NCBI GenBank assembly: GCA_026417375.1
Contig: JAOADJ010000011.1
Coordinates: forward strand, 1 to 64,000
From: Melioribacteraceae bacterium
GTDB taxonomy: Bacteria; Bacteroidota; Ignavibacteria; Ignavibacteriales; Melioribacteraceae
Direction: 5' to 3'
DNA length: 64,000 nt
This document shows, in pieces, positions 36,364 to 41,002 of the stretch; within the stretch, counting starts at the first letter, position 1, and every line of letters begins with the position of its first letter. Below the pieces are notes generated by a model. It ran no database searches and was not told the DNA's origin. It worked only from the letters and a program-made list of their open reading frames with translations. The translations under genes were made by a program, and so were the position numbers.

Positions 36364-37215
36364 TTAGTTTTGTTTTCTAAATACTAAAGAAATCCACTCA
36401 TCTAAACCTGATTTGTTTTCCAAAACAAATCGTTTGGATTCATACAAATTAATTATTTCCTCTTCATCAATATTTAATAAACCAGATAGAATTATAATTC
36501 CGTTACTTTTTAATTTGTTAAATAAATCTTCAACAATATTTATTAAGATTGGTTTGTTAATATTTGCAAGAATTATATCAAAATCATTTTCTTTAACATC
36601 TTTGATTTCACATAATCTAATGTCAATTTTATCTTCAAGTTGATTCAGTTTTGCATTTTCATTTCCATTTAGAAAACACCATTCATCATTATCAATACAA
36701 ATAGCTTCTCTGGCACCAAGTTTAAGTGCAGTAATTCCTAAAATTGCTGTTCCTGAGCCAACATCTAAAACAAATTCATCTCCTTTGATATAATTTTCTA
36801 AATAAGTTAAAATCAATTTTGTCGTTGCATGTTCACCAGTTCCGAAAGACATTTTTGGATCAATAGTAATTACTAATTGATTTGGTTTAGAAATATATTC
36901 TTTAAATGATGGTTTAATTACAATTTTATCAGTTACTTCAACAACATTTACATTTTTTTCATATTCTTCATTCCAATTCCTTTCTTCAAGTGTTTGAAAT
37001 TCAAGCTCAAAATTTTCAATGATTTTATCTTCAACTAATTTTTTTAGTAGTGAATTAAATACTTCTTCATTTAAAAGTTTATCTTCACTAACAAACACAG
37101 TTAGATGATCATCAAATTCATTAATTCCATCTATATCAAGTTCCCAAAGAAAACCCGATAAAACATCAACATCAAATGGTTCTGTTTTAATTTTTATTTC
37201 TTTATATGTTTTCAT
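36364..37215 (-). CDS. prmA: Ribosomal protein L11 methyltransferase
   Basis: SAM-dependent trimethylation of ribosomal protein L11. 283 residues: N-terminal substrate-recruiting domain (1 to about 95), then the Rossmann domain with TIDPKMSFGTGEHATTKL (near 117) and motif I FVLDVGSGTAILGITALKLGA (near 143), and the catalytic-site NINKPILI (near 217; usually N-(I/P)-x-x-x-P-L). Its start overlaps the dacB stop by 4 bases. Last gene of the purM operon and convergent with the MarR gene. Confidence 0.94.
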   Translation of the reverse strand: MKTYKEIKIKTEPFDVDVLSGFLWELDIDGINEFDDHLTVFVSEDKLLNEEVFNSLLKKLVEDKIIENFELEFQTLEERNWNEEYEKNVNVVEVTDKIVIKPSFKEYISKPNQLVITIDPKMSFGTGEHATTKLILTYLENYIKGDEFVLDVGSGTAILGITALKLGAREAICIDNDEWCFLNGNENAKLNQLEDKIDIRLCEIKDVKENDFDIILANINKPILINIVEDLFNKLKSNGIIILSGLLNIDEEEIINLYESKRFVLENKSGLDEWISLVFRKQN

Positions 37216-38633
37216 AATTCATTATAAATTATTTCACAAATTTTATCTTGTATATCTCTTGCTTGTTTTGATGAACCAACAAAATTTTGAATTAAAATAG
37301 AAAAAACAATCAGATTATTCTTTTTTGTTTTAATATAACCGCTTAGTGATGAAACACCACTTATTGTTCCTGTTTTTGCAAAAACAAAACCTCGGGCAGA
37401 TGAATTCTTAAATCTATTTGCAAGTGTTCCATCAATTCCACCAATTGGAAGTGTATTTATAAATAAAGTTGGAATTGGTTCATTTTGTTTTTTAATAAAC
37501 TTAAGTACTTTAATCAGAAGTTCAGATGATAGCAAATTATAATATGATAATCCTGATCCATCTGCTATTCTATATTCTTTTGGGTTTGCACCTGAAAGTG
37601 TAATTAAGCTATCAATAAAAAATTTACCATTAATAGCCGATTGTTTATTAAACTTTAAACCAGCTACAGCTCGCAACAACATTTCAGCGCTTAAATTATC
37701 ACTAACTTTGTTTGTGTTTGTTATTACTGGTATTATATTCCTTTTGAAACTGGTTATTAATTTAATGTCTGAATTAATTTTGCATGTGTCAAGAGTTCCG
37801 GAAAACTGAATTCCTGAGTTGATTAATTTTTCTTTGAACAAACTTAAAAAATAAAAATGTGGTTCTCTTACACTAACTTCAATTGAATCTTTTTTTGAAT
37901 TAATTGAAATATTTCCTTTTGAAATTATTTTATTATTGTGATTTAACCAATCACGATTTATTTCAAAATTTGAATTTCCATCAAAAGTTGTTTTAGAATT
38001 ATTAATTAACTGAACAAAATTATTTTTGGGATTAAAAGAAATTTTTGCGGGTTTGTTTAATGAATCGGGTTCAAAATAAATAGTTAAAGAATTTTTATTT
38101 ATAGCAAGTTGCGATAAATATGGCATATAAGTTTCAGGTTCATCGCTCCAAATCCAACCTTGTCCAAAATAAAGAGAATCACTTTTAGAAATATCTGTGT
38201 AAATATTTCCATTGATTTTTTTAATCCCAATATTTTTTATTGCGGTTGTAACAGAATCTAAATCGTTAGTAGAAAAATCCGGATCAAAACTTCCAGTTAC
38301 AAAAATATTTCCATAAAGAACAGAATCTTTTATTTCTCCATCATAAAAAAATGAAGTTTGGAACTGATAATCTTTACCTAAAAAATAAAGGGCAGTTGCG
38401 GTAGTTAAAATTTTTTGATTTGAAGCAGGTCGCATTAATTTTTTTGAATTAATAGAAATTAGAATTGAATCCTTTTGAAAATCTAAAGCTGAAATTGAAA
38501 TGTTTGATTTTTGAAAAAAGTCTGATACTAATAAACTATCAATTCTTTTTTCGAAATAAGATTTCTCTTGCTTAAAAGTTGAACAAGCAGATATAATAAA
38601 AACGATTAATAAAAAAGTTATTAAGTTTTTCAT
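37212..38633 (-). CDS. dacB: D-Ala-D-Ala carboxypeptidase/endopeptidase (PBP4, peptidase S13), lipoprotein
   Basis: Low-molecular-mass penicillin-binding protein that trims peptide stems and cleaves crosslinks. 473 residues with a lipobox ending at C17 (VFIISAC), so a lipoprotein rather than a soluble periplasmic enzyme. Active-site motifs: SxxK at S71-K74 (RPASNQKIL), SxN in VSDNLSAEMLLRA and KTG in FAKTGTISGVSSLSGY near residue 420. The large insert between the first two motifs (about 80-300) is typical for S13. Its ATG overlaps the stop of the TatD/radical SAM gene by one base. Confidence 0.94.
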   Translation of the reverse strand: MKNLITFLLIVFIISACSTFKQEKSYFEKRIDSLLVSDFFQKSNISISALDFQKDSILISINSKKLMRPASNQKILTTATALYFLGKDYQFQTSFFYDGEIKDSVLYGNIFVTGSFDPDFSTNDLDSVTTAIKNIGIKKINGNIYTDISKSDSLYFGQGWIWSDEPETYMPYLSQLAINKNSLTIYFEPDSLNKPAKISFNPKNNFVQLINNSKTTFDGNSNFEINRDWLNHNNKIISKGNISINSKKDSIEVSVREPHFYFLSLFKEKLINSGIQFSGTLDTCKINSDIKLITSFKRNIIPVITNTNKVSDNLSAEMLLRAVAGLKFNKQSAINGKFFIDSLITLSGANPKEYRIADGSGLSYYNLLSSELLIKVLKFIKKQNEPIPTLFINTLPIGGIDGTLANRFKNSSARGFVFAKTGTISGVSSLSGYIKTKKNNLIVFSILIQNFVGSSKQARDIQDKICEIIYNEL

Positions 38634-39991
38634 TAAAAATATTCTCTTTCTCTGAAATCAACACCAAGTTCATGAGTAACAAAATTTTTAGCTGCTTCTT
38701 TATCAATTTCACTTAATCCAACAATAGACATAACAACATGTGTATAATTTTTTGCTTTTTTTGCAAAGTCAATCATTTCATTATGTAGCGAAGGATCTAC
38801 TCTCATCAACTTAGCATATTGTTCGGCATCTGTTGAATTTAAGCTAATTGAAACTACATCAATTAAATCTTTTAGTTCCGGAGTAATATCTTTTTTATTG
38901 ATATAGTTGCCGTGACCATCTGTATTCATTCTTGTTTTGCCACCATTTTCTTTAACATATTTTGCCACTTCTTTTACAACATCCCATCGAATTGTTGGTT
39001 CGCCATAACCACAGAAAACAATTTCACTGTAATTTTTAGGATCTCCAATTTCTTTAATATATACTTCAGCATCGGGTTCTTCTGCTTTGGACATTTTTAA
39101 ATTATATCCATTAATCATAGCATCACCTTTTCTGTCGCAAAAAACACAATCAGCATTGCAACGATTTGTAACATTAATATAAAGTGATTTACCAATTTGA
39201 TAAGTGAAGCTAACTTTTGGTTTCATACCAATACCAAATAATTTAAATGCATTATAAGATGTGGTTCTTGCAACATCTTCTGTTCTTAAATTATGAACTT
39301 CTGCAATTTTTTCAGCAACTAATTTTACATTTGATGGTTCATTACGTTCACCTCGGTGTGGAACAGGAGTCATAAAAGGTGAATCGGTTTCAAGTAATAA
39401 ATTTTCAACCGAAACTCTGCTTAATATACTTCTTAATGAACTCATATTTTTAAATGTAATATTTCCGGTGAAAGAAATGTAATGCCTAAGTTCAATTAAC
39501 TCTCTTGCATCTTCAAGGGAACCTGCAAAACAATGAAACTGAGCTTTTAAATTACTTCCTTTATAAGAACGAATTATATTCATCATATCGAAATTTGCAT
39601 CCCGGTTATGAACTATAATTGGTTTGTTCATTTTTAATGAAATATCAATCTGGGAAGTAAAAGCTTCAATCTGTTTTTCTTTTGGTGAGAAGTCATAAAA
39701 ATAATCTAAACCAATTTCTCCGATTGCTACAACTTTTTTGTGAGTTGCTAATTCTTCTATTTGTTGAATTAAAGAGTTATTCCAATCTTTTGTATCATGT
39801 GGATGAACTCCAACAGCTGCATAGATTATATCATATTTATCTGCAAGTTCAATTGCTTTTTTCGAAGTTTCAATATCAGTTCCCGGAACTATAATAAAAT
39901 TAACATCTGAGTTTTTTGCTCTTTCAATTACTTTATCTAAATCATTTTCAAAATTATGATAGAATAAATGAGCGTGTGTATCTATAAACAT
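38633..39991 (-). CDS. TatD-family hydrolase fused to a radical SAM domain
   Basis: 452 residues in one open frame. Residues 1-255 are a TatD metallo-hydrolase with the ligand set H6, H8 (DTHAHLF), E92 (GEIGLDYFYD), H128, H153 and D203 (LETDSPFMTP). From about 262 a radical SAM domain follows, with the [4Fe-4S] motif C278-x3-C282-x2-C285 (NRCNADCVFC) and the GEP SAM-binding motif at 330-332 (FCGYGEPTIRW). A small TatD-linked radical SAM family is known as a separate neighbour gene in other genomes (from memory, TIGR04038), so this fusion supports a functional link. The substrate is unknown. It lies between purM (15-base gap) and dacB. Confidence 0.9.
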   Translation of the reverse strand: MFIDTHAHLFYHNFENDLDKVIERAKNSDVNFIIVPGTDIETSKKAIELADKYDIIYAAVGVHPHDTKDWNNSLIQQIEELATHKKVVAIGEIGLDYFYDFSPKEKQIEAFTSQIDISLKMNKPIIVHNRDANFDMMNIIRSYKGSNLKAQFHCFAGSLEDARELIELRHYISFTGNITFKNMSSLRSILSRVSVENLLLETDSPFMTPVPHRGERNEPSNVKLVAEKIAEVHNLRTEDVARTTSYNAFKLFGIGMKPKVSFTYQIGKSLYINVTNRCNADCVFCDRKGDAMINGYNLKMSKAEEPDAEVYIKEIGDPKNYSEIVFCGYGEPTIRWDVVKEVAKYVKENGGKTRMNTDGHGNYINKKDITPELKDLIDVVSISLNSTDAEQYAKLMRVDPSLHNEMIDFAKKAKNYTHVVMSIVGLSEIDKEAAKNFVTHELGVDFREREYF

Positions 39992-40006: not shown

Positions 40007-41002
40007 TTAAAAAATTTCTCCAATAATTATTCCCGGTTCATTTACTTCCTTTGAAAGCTCTAATGTTTTATCAACATCATTTTTACCTACAATTGCTATT
40101 AAACCAATTCCAAGATTAAATACATTTCTCATTTCATCATCAGAAATATTTCCTGTTTCTTGTATTAATTTAAAAATCGGTAATGTCTCCCAAGAGTTCC
40201 ATTCAATTTTTATTTCGTGTGAATCAGGAACAACACGTTTTGTATTTCCAATAATTCCACCACCGGTAATATGTGAAAATGCTTTTACGGAAATATTTTC
40301 GTTTAATTTCATAATTAAATTCAAATATGATTTATGAATTTGCAAAAGCTCTTCGCCAAGTGATTTATCTAAAATTTCCGGTTTATCATTGACTGAATAT
40401 TTTTCAAACAAAACTTTTCTTGCAAGGGAATAGCCATTTGTATGCAAGCCGGTAGATTTAAAACCAATTAATACATCACCATTGGTTACATTTTTACCAT
40501 CAATTATTTTATCTTTTTCTACTATTCCAACAATAGTTCCGGAAATATCATATTCGTTTTCATCATAAAGACCGGGCATTTCGGCTGTTTCACCACCAAT
40601 TAAAGCAAAGTTGTTTTCTTTACAAGCAATAGAAAATCCTTTTATAATTTGTTCGGCTTTTTCAGGAATTAATTTGCCGAAAGCCATGTAATCCATAAAA
40701 TATTGAGGAATAGCACCGCAAACAGAAATATCATTTACGCAATGATTTACTAAATCCTGACCAATAGTGTCATGTTTATCCAAAGCAAAAGCAATTTTAA
40801 GTTTGGTTCCAACTCCATCAACACTTGATACCAAAACAGGTTTATTCCATTTAGAAAGATCAACTTCGTAAAATGCACCAAAGTGACCAATCCCCGAAAG
40901 AACATTTTTATTAAAAGTTGATTTTGCTAAACTTTTTATTCTTTTAACAGTTTCATCACCCGCTTGAATATCAACACCCGCATTTTTATAAGTGGTTTCC
41001 AA
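40007..41002 (-). CDS. purM: Phosphoribosylformylglycinamidine cyclo-ligase
   Basis: AIR synthetase of de novo purine synthesis: ATP-dependent ring closure of FGAM. 331 residues. Family stretches: YKNAGVDIQAGDE at the N-terminus, VSSVDGVGTKLKIA (near 60), NHCVNDISVCGAIPQYFMDYMAFGKL, LIGGETAEMPGLY (near 135) and SHITGGGIIGNTKRVVP. The start codon is TTG with GAGGA 5 bases upstream. It heads the purM-TatD/rSAM-dacB-prmA operon. Confidence 0.97.
   Translation of the reverse strand: METTYKNAGVDIQAGDETVKRIKSLAKSTFNKNVLSGIGHFGAFYEVDLSKWNKPVLVSSVDGVGTKLKIAFALDKHDTIGQDLVNHCVNDISVCGAIPQYFMDYMAFGKLIPEKAEQIIKGFSIACKENNFALIGGETAEMPGLYDENEYDISGTIVGIVEKDKIIDGKNVTNGDVLIGFKSTGLHTNGYSLARKVLFEKYSVNDKPEILDKSLGEELLQIHKSYLNLIMKLNENISVKAFSHITGGGIIGNTKRVVPDSHEIKIEWNSWETLPIFKLIQETGNISDDEMRNVFNLGIGLIAIVGKNDVDKTLELSKEVNEPGIIIGEIF

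Follow-up and report, generated by a model that had tools for sequence, protein, structure and literature searches.

Why should a TatD nuclease carry a radical S-adenosylmethionine (SAM) domain, and do the two halves act on the same substrate? The question is raised by a gene on a 64,000-nucleotide stretch of DNA from a Melioribacteraceae bacterium (contig JAOADJ010000011.1, positions 1 to 64,000, forward strand), referred to here as the window. The gene (38633..39991, on the minus strand, as are all features of the window described below) has an ATG start and encodes, in one frame, a protein of 452 amino acids that an initial annotation had described as a tatD::radical SAM fusion. TatD occurs very widely, and there is still debate about its role in the cell. 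If the sole TatD of several phyla is also a radical enzyme, the substrate of the radical half would reveal the target of the housekeeping TatD, and the fixed junction between the halves makes this a question that could be tested with one protein.

Domain composition and geometry of the fusion protein

The N-terminal half (residues 2-253; 39233..39988) belongs to the TatD family, matching TIGR00010 with 293.6 bits (cut-off, 206) and, at residues 3-253, PF01026 TatD_DNase with 289.3 bits (3.1e-86); its predicted fold superimposes on Staphylococcus aureus TatD (6l25) with a Z score of 40.9 and a root-mean-square deviation of 1.2 over 254 residues. After a short junction (residues 254-261; 39209..39232), the C-terminal half (residues 262-451; 38639..39208) matches TIGR04038, "tatD_link_rSAM", with 212.2 bits against a cut-off of 129.7 (model positions 2-191/192), as well as PF04055 Radical_SAM at residues 272-433 (72.2 bits; gathering score, 29.5; 7.7e-20). 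An alignment of 64 fused proteins, every one of which matches TIGR04038 at an E value of 0.001 or better, has H6, H8, E92, H128, H153, and D203 of the TatD metal site invariant, and likewise C278, C282, C285, G330, E331, and P332 of the radical SAM site. The HxH motif that contains H6 and H8 of the group II TatD metal site lies at 39968..39976, the CxxxCxxC cluster motif at 39137..39160, and the GEP motif at 38996..39004. The initial annotation had read a complete TatD metal site and a complete radical SAM domain from one frame and had proposed a domain search, with comparison of the C-terminal region to TIGR04038; all of the residues that it named are present, and both assignments are borne out by the NCBI and Pfam models. 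We are nearly certain that both domains are complete and that the architecture is that of a group II TatD and a radical SAM domain in one protein.

The two halves are joined with little variation. Both the RGxxNxP motif of TatD and the CxxxCxxC motif of the radical SAM domain are evident in 69 of the 72 fusions inspected, and in 66 of these the motifs are 65 or 66 residues apart; from the first cysteine to the C-terminus the same 72 proteins have 174 to 187 residues. An AlphaFold prediction of the whole protein (mean predicted local distance difference test [pLDDT], 95.9; predicted template-modeling score [pTM], 0.89) suggests one confident unit, in which the last TatD helix ends at residue 252, the next strand begins at 263, and the chain stops right after the sixth radical SAM strand (445-449), without a cap domain. 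The top radical SAM entries in the Foldseek list are pyruvate formate-lyase (PFL) activase, TYW1, BlsE, EpeE, AprD4, and viperin-like enzymes. Aligned ranges are not part of the list, and these entries are taken to fall on the second half. The VIA-align rows spanned the TatD half only, and the fold neighbors of the radical SAM half rest on Foldseek and on sequence, a profile of this half matching YydG/EpeE and PFL activase (E value for PFL activase, 7.5e-5).

Distribution and history of the fusion

The fusion recurs far beyond this genome. Among 395 genomes of the phylum, its own included, 55 encode a near-full-length fusion in one frame, and in two more (G216 and G377) the fusion is cut by contig ends. 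Every one of the 40 genomes in the window's order has it (39 nearly full length and one cut by a contig end), as it is present in 4/4 genomes of a more distant family (f21). Relatives are encoded on at least 581 stretches of public genome contigs, and the best 80 of these public loci, which are the top matches to a query built from fused proteins, comprise 72 fused genes, four adjacent pairs, three loci without TatD in the fetched stretch, and one at a contig edge; because the query consisted of fused proteins, 72/80 overstates the fused share. The fused loci are labeled as Ignavibacteriota, Bacteroidota, Nitrospirota, Nitrospinota, Planctomycetota, Acidobacteriota, Myxococcota, Thermodesulfobacteriota, Calditrichota, Zixiibacteriota, and Omnitrophota, among others.

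Surveys with the TIGR04038 model do not start from the fused query and are less biased. They count genes over the curated cut-off, ignoring the weaker TIGR04038 matches that a control found in nearly every genome, and judge fusion from a frame of at least 425 amino acids, with TatD itself confirmed in the fetched loci only. In the class Ignavibacteria, 62 of 149 genomes have such a gene, 60 of them in frames of at least 425 amino acids; the exceptions are a gene at a contig end (G377) and a frame of 279 amino acids (G670). The phylum of Malonomonas has 18 positive genomes among 99 and the Planctomycetota survey 22 among 119, all in long frames (at least 442 and at least 456 amino acids, respectively). 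Fusion is thus the ordinary state of the family in these three groups outside Bacillota. In Bacillota (the phylum of Acetobacterium), 50 of 199 genomes are over the cut-off, and 49 of the 50 have the gene in short separate frames of 113 to 255 amino acids; a Bacillota frame of 493 amino acids (L163) that looks like a fusion was rejected, as it has no TatD match. These counts supply the comparison of fused and adjacent forms that the initial annotation had proposed. Its mention of a TatD-linked radical SAM family is correct in the link, which leads to TIGR04038, but not in treating a neighboring gene as the norm and fusion as exceptional, since fusion is the usual form outside Bacillota in the groups surveyed.

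Three of the split pairs (L097, L112, and L114) have their TatD and radical SAM frames divided by a single in-frame stop codon, and fused and split forms are therefore one codon apart. The initial annotation held that relatives with a stop between two proteins at the same site would expose a read-through or assembly artifact. Such pairs do exist in other lineages, whereas the window's order is fused throughout; with one stop-free frame in 55/395 phylum genomes and in 72 of the best 80 loci, we reject an artifact, to which we attach a negligible probability.

Inheritance of the fused form is orderly. On a quick tree of the radical SAM domain the fused/non-fused label changes 4 times, against a mean of 33.5 with shuffled labels, and on a quick TatD tree 5 times, against a mean of 26.1; fused rows are strongly clustered on both. 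The TatD tree used 120 of the 150 rows made, leaving out 30 relatives of the window, and both trees were midpoint-rooted for drawing, so that they do not distinguish a single ancient fusion followed by splits from repeated fusion. On the TatD tree, 62 rows of the window's phylum, comprising fused rows and the barrel-fused rows described below, form one group (support, 96), which would fit long vertical descent.

The fused protein also appears to be the ordinary TatD of the cell. No other TatD was found in its own genome, and a single TatD was found in 18 of 20 other genomes with a linked radical SAM gene, including 13 of the 15 in which the gene is fused. Outside Ignavibacteria, 16 of the 40 fused loci have metG as their next upstream gene, with holB, PSP1, ksgA, and tmk relatives repeatedly nearby; the neighbor count omits 5 of the 72 fused loci (L078, L089, L094, L110, and L121), which simple gene calling missed. 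Because the TatD is the sole copy and has these housekeeping neighbors, the radical domain sits on the ordinary cellular TatD and not on a special copy. Bacillus subtilis yabD is likewise related to metG and ksgA in the available part of one account (PMC3814617).

Three side observations concern individual members of the family. The radical SAM domain of one f21 fusion (L051:3001-4362; G001:C3) has a very long branch (1.86) on the radical SAM tree; it keeps the cluster cysteines, has FAGPGEP in place of FCGYGEP, and ends in a C-terminus unlike the others, and it is possibly losing or changing function. In the Planctomycetota survey, neighboring frames of 284 and 281 amino acids at G853:C84:91265-92617 score 97.9 and 124.9 bits with TIGR04038, both below its cut-off, and may be a tandem pair of a related family. 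Of 20 Bacillota loci with a usable layout, seven (L184, L185, L189 to L192, and L116) have a stand-alone TIGR04038 gene next to a relative of a DUF3792 gene; a histidine kinase relative adjoins the latter in six of the seven, and in four the opposite side is occupied by a heavy-metal P-type ATPase relative. The neighbor families were tested by one representative each, and the layout left out L183, L195, and L201, in which no radical SAM gene passed gene calling and the score filter. This TatD-free setting is a second context that might hint at function.

A proposed shared nucleic-acid substrate and its rivals

Fixed spacing and clustered inheritance lead us to favor a working unit. A group II (YcfH/YabD-type) TatD nuclease whose C-terminus carries a minimal radical SAM core of six strands, held in fixed geometry, would then be one bifunctional housekeeping enzyme. 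Its radical half would bind a [4Fe-4S] cluster and SAM and generate a 5'-deoxyadenosyl radical, which would abstract hydrogen from a substrate at the mouth of the barrel. Its TatD half would use two metals to trim 3' ends or to cut abasic sites, as relatives do. According to one study, group II is defined by the HxH motif, the group II enzyme YcfH of Escherichia coli (also HxH) has 3' exonuclease and apurinic/apyrimidinic endonuclease activity, and related TatD enzymes trim single-stranded DNA at its 3' ends and cleave duplexes at abasic sites (PMC10085689). The substrate of the radical would be the nucleic acid under trimming or the nucleotide released, and one protein would process an end or lesion in two steps. 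That the nuclease and the radical enzyme share a nucleic-acid substrate is both the most likely step and the least certain, and we propose it tentatively. A bolder form of the proposal, which we consider quite improbable, is that a radical SAM enzyme of nucleic acid repair or end processing is built around the sole TatD of several phyla, where a family name that presents it as no more than a TatD associate would have kept it from notice. It would be a second radical SAM route to DNA or RNA repair, besides spore photoproduct lyase.

Several observations weigh against a shared substrate. The solved radical SAM relatives include enzymes that act on proteins or peptides (PFL activase and EpeE), as well as on tRNA (TYW1) and nucleotides (viperin). 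Few residues distinguish the fusions from the separate proteins at the thresholds used (D239, I369, and the junction glycine 255, which is simply absent from separate TatDs). Among 30 Bacillota loci, TatD directly precedes the radical SAM gene on the same strand in 11 (with one intervening gene in L144), and in 17 of the 28 with enough upstream sequence the radical SAM gene lies away from tatD (L162 and L168, with fewer than 210 bases upstream, were left unjudged). The TatD tree places L218, a plain TatD from a genome in which no TIGR04038 match exceeds the cut-off, among fusions; because of this placement, the radical SAM domain evidently can be lost. Finally, the TatD C-terminus is extended in frame in unlike ways within one class, as the following loci illustrate.

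Sixteen Ignavibacteria loci without the radical domain were fetched, chosen mostly for long frames, and in 15 of them (L203 to L217, the exception being L218) the tatD frame continues without a stop into a hydrophobic segment, where in all 15 the hydrophobicity of the frame, taken over 15 residues, is highest. About 210 to 340 residues lie beyond TatD, the final residue is F or W in 10/15, and in 12/15 there is an in-frame ATG 6 to 15 codons before the end of TatD, in its last helix, where a signal peptide would be expected to begin. The model of one such protein (L205:2401-3852, plus strand; pLDDT, 83.5; pTM, 0.54; junction residues 255-288 under 50) combines TatD with a helix at 253-266 and eight strands of at least 12 residues, and Pfam OMP_b-brl is matched by 2 of 13 members. 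We predict that the extension is a signal peptide followed by an eight-stranded outer-membrane barrel. The 15 TatD domains form one group on the TatD tree (support, 100). By a less biased count, 24 of 149 class genomes match the L205 protein past residue 300 in one frame, none of them with a gene over the TIGR04038 cut-off; 14 more class genomes without such a gene have TatD in frames of at least 470 amino acids, not all of which were checked. The product could be a precursor whose cleavage would leave TatD at the inner membrane, or the barrel gene could have its own start nested in tatD. Among the matches listed, we found no title on TatD, the outer membrane, and fusion together that describes this architecture. 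A substrate shared by TatD and an outer-membrane barrel is hard to imagine, and because TatD of the same class also runs into an unrelated secreted barrel, fusion alone is no proof of a shared substrate. The initial annotation, which took the fusion as strong evidence that both activities act on the same substrate or pathway, therefore claimed too much; the loss in L218, the separation in Bacillota, and the barrel frames all count against that claim.

One rival is a purely regulatory explanation, namely, that a stop was lost in an old tatD-radical SAM pair and that two independent activities share only regulation or dosage. The lone in-frame stop in L097, L112, and L114, the loss of the domain in L218 and its separation in Bacillota, and the in-frame fusion of TatD to a signal peptide and barrel all speak for it; the near-constant junction length, the confident joint model, and the clustering of fused rows on both trees speak for a closer relationship, and we regard regulation alone as unlikely. 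We judge it similarly doubtful that the radical SAM half modifies a protein, as an activase or peptide-modifying enzyme, with TatD as its docking partner or target. The solved relatives that its profile matches are a peptide epimerase (YydG/EpeE) and PFL activase, PFL activase (3c8f) is also the first radical SAM entry in Foldseek, and the lack of a cap domain in the predicted structure may give a large substrate access to the mouth. However, the PFL activase model TIGR02493 scores only 31.9 bits against a cut-off of 231.75, and no small substrate-protein gene stood out in the neighbor clusters (frames under 90 amino acids were not called, and very short ones would be missed). Moreover, a single glycyl radical enzyme was found in the genome, a trans-4-hydroxy-L-proline dehydratase (L225:4054-7253; G000:C53:34053-37252; 1319.4 bits; cut-off, 1100), and an activase of its own lies just upstream of it (TIGR02494; 263.9 bits; cut-off, 174.35). 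NrdD was not found in this genome and is over its cut-off in 1/149 class genomes, for which reason it is also unusable as an anaerobic marker for correlation. The low activase score, the dedicated activase, and the failure to find NrdD led us to reject a role as a glycyl radical activase.

A small-molecule substrate (a cofactor, a nucleotide, or an aminoacyl-tRNA moiety), acted on by the radical and then hydrolyzed by TatD, which has an amidohydrolase-like fold, appears rather improbable to us. The radical SAM half does score against the models of MoaA and prokaryotic viperin (NF038283), enzymes that act on nucleotides, but far below their cut-offs (46.7 versus 231 bits and 39.2 versus 180 bits, respectively), and the recurring neighbors identified are genes of replication and translation and not of a pathway. 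The D-aminoacyl-tRNA version appears not to be needed, either. Like the TatD-type D-aminoacyl-tRNA deacylase DTD3, the fusion was considered as a replacement for a missing DTD (D-Tyr-tRNA deacylase); DTD is present in the genome itself and in 146/149 class genomes, which leaves no gap to fill, and this replacement was rejected. Having weighed these alternatives, we retain the bifunctional nuclease and radical enzyme as our favored reading.

Gene neighborhood and known systems

In the window the fusion gene stands in a tight row on one strand, with purM (40007..41002) upstream across a gap of 15 bp, dacB (37212..38633) downstream with a 1-bp overlap, and prmA (36364..37215) overlapping dacB by 4 bp. 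These names, given in the initial annotation, agree with the Pfam domains (AIRS and AIRS_C, Peptidase_S13, and PrmA, respectively). Of 26 fused loci of Ignavibacteria, 12 have a purM relative as the next upstream gene and 15 a dacB relative as the next downstream gene. QatD of the Qat defense system and prokaryotic viperin each distantly match one half of the protein, and both fall below their cut-offs (87.9 bits versus 230 for QatD), and the neighbors here are purM, dacB, and prmA; six viral loci have only 22 to 39% identity, and a phage or defense role was rejected.

Compared with known systems, the TatD half has the HxH motif and metal residues of the YcfH/YabD group II enzymes of TIGR00010, scoring below the YcfH equivalog NF008075 (201.5 bits; cut-off, 438). 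Solved group II TatDs (6l25, 2gzx, 1j6o, 1yix, and others) have 253 to 265 amino acids and, unlike the fusion, no radical SAM domain. For the radical SAM half, PFL activase 3c8f (Foldseek E value, 1.2e-6) is the first radical SAM entry in the structural list and differs in its sub-cut-off family score; TIGR04100, rSAM_pair_X, for which we know of no function, is the closest other radical SAM model, yet its match is also below the cut-off (153.8 bits; cut-off, 262). In the literature searched, we found no account of the TIGR04038 domain, and papers on TatD and radical SAM, in the parts available, seem not to treat the link. Both domains are nonetheless named families, and the C-terminal half is a member of the NCBIfam "TatD family nuclease-associated radical SAM protein," whose name already records the link to TatD and carries no function. 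Its kind, subfamily_domain, suggests that NCBI is already aware of fusions. While that name implies a neighboring gene, here and in the groups surveyed outside Bacillota the family occurs mostly as part of the TatD protein itself, and the tatD::radical SAM fusion, widespread across distant phyla, appears to lie outside the earlier literature that was searched, even though both of its families had been named.

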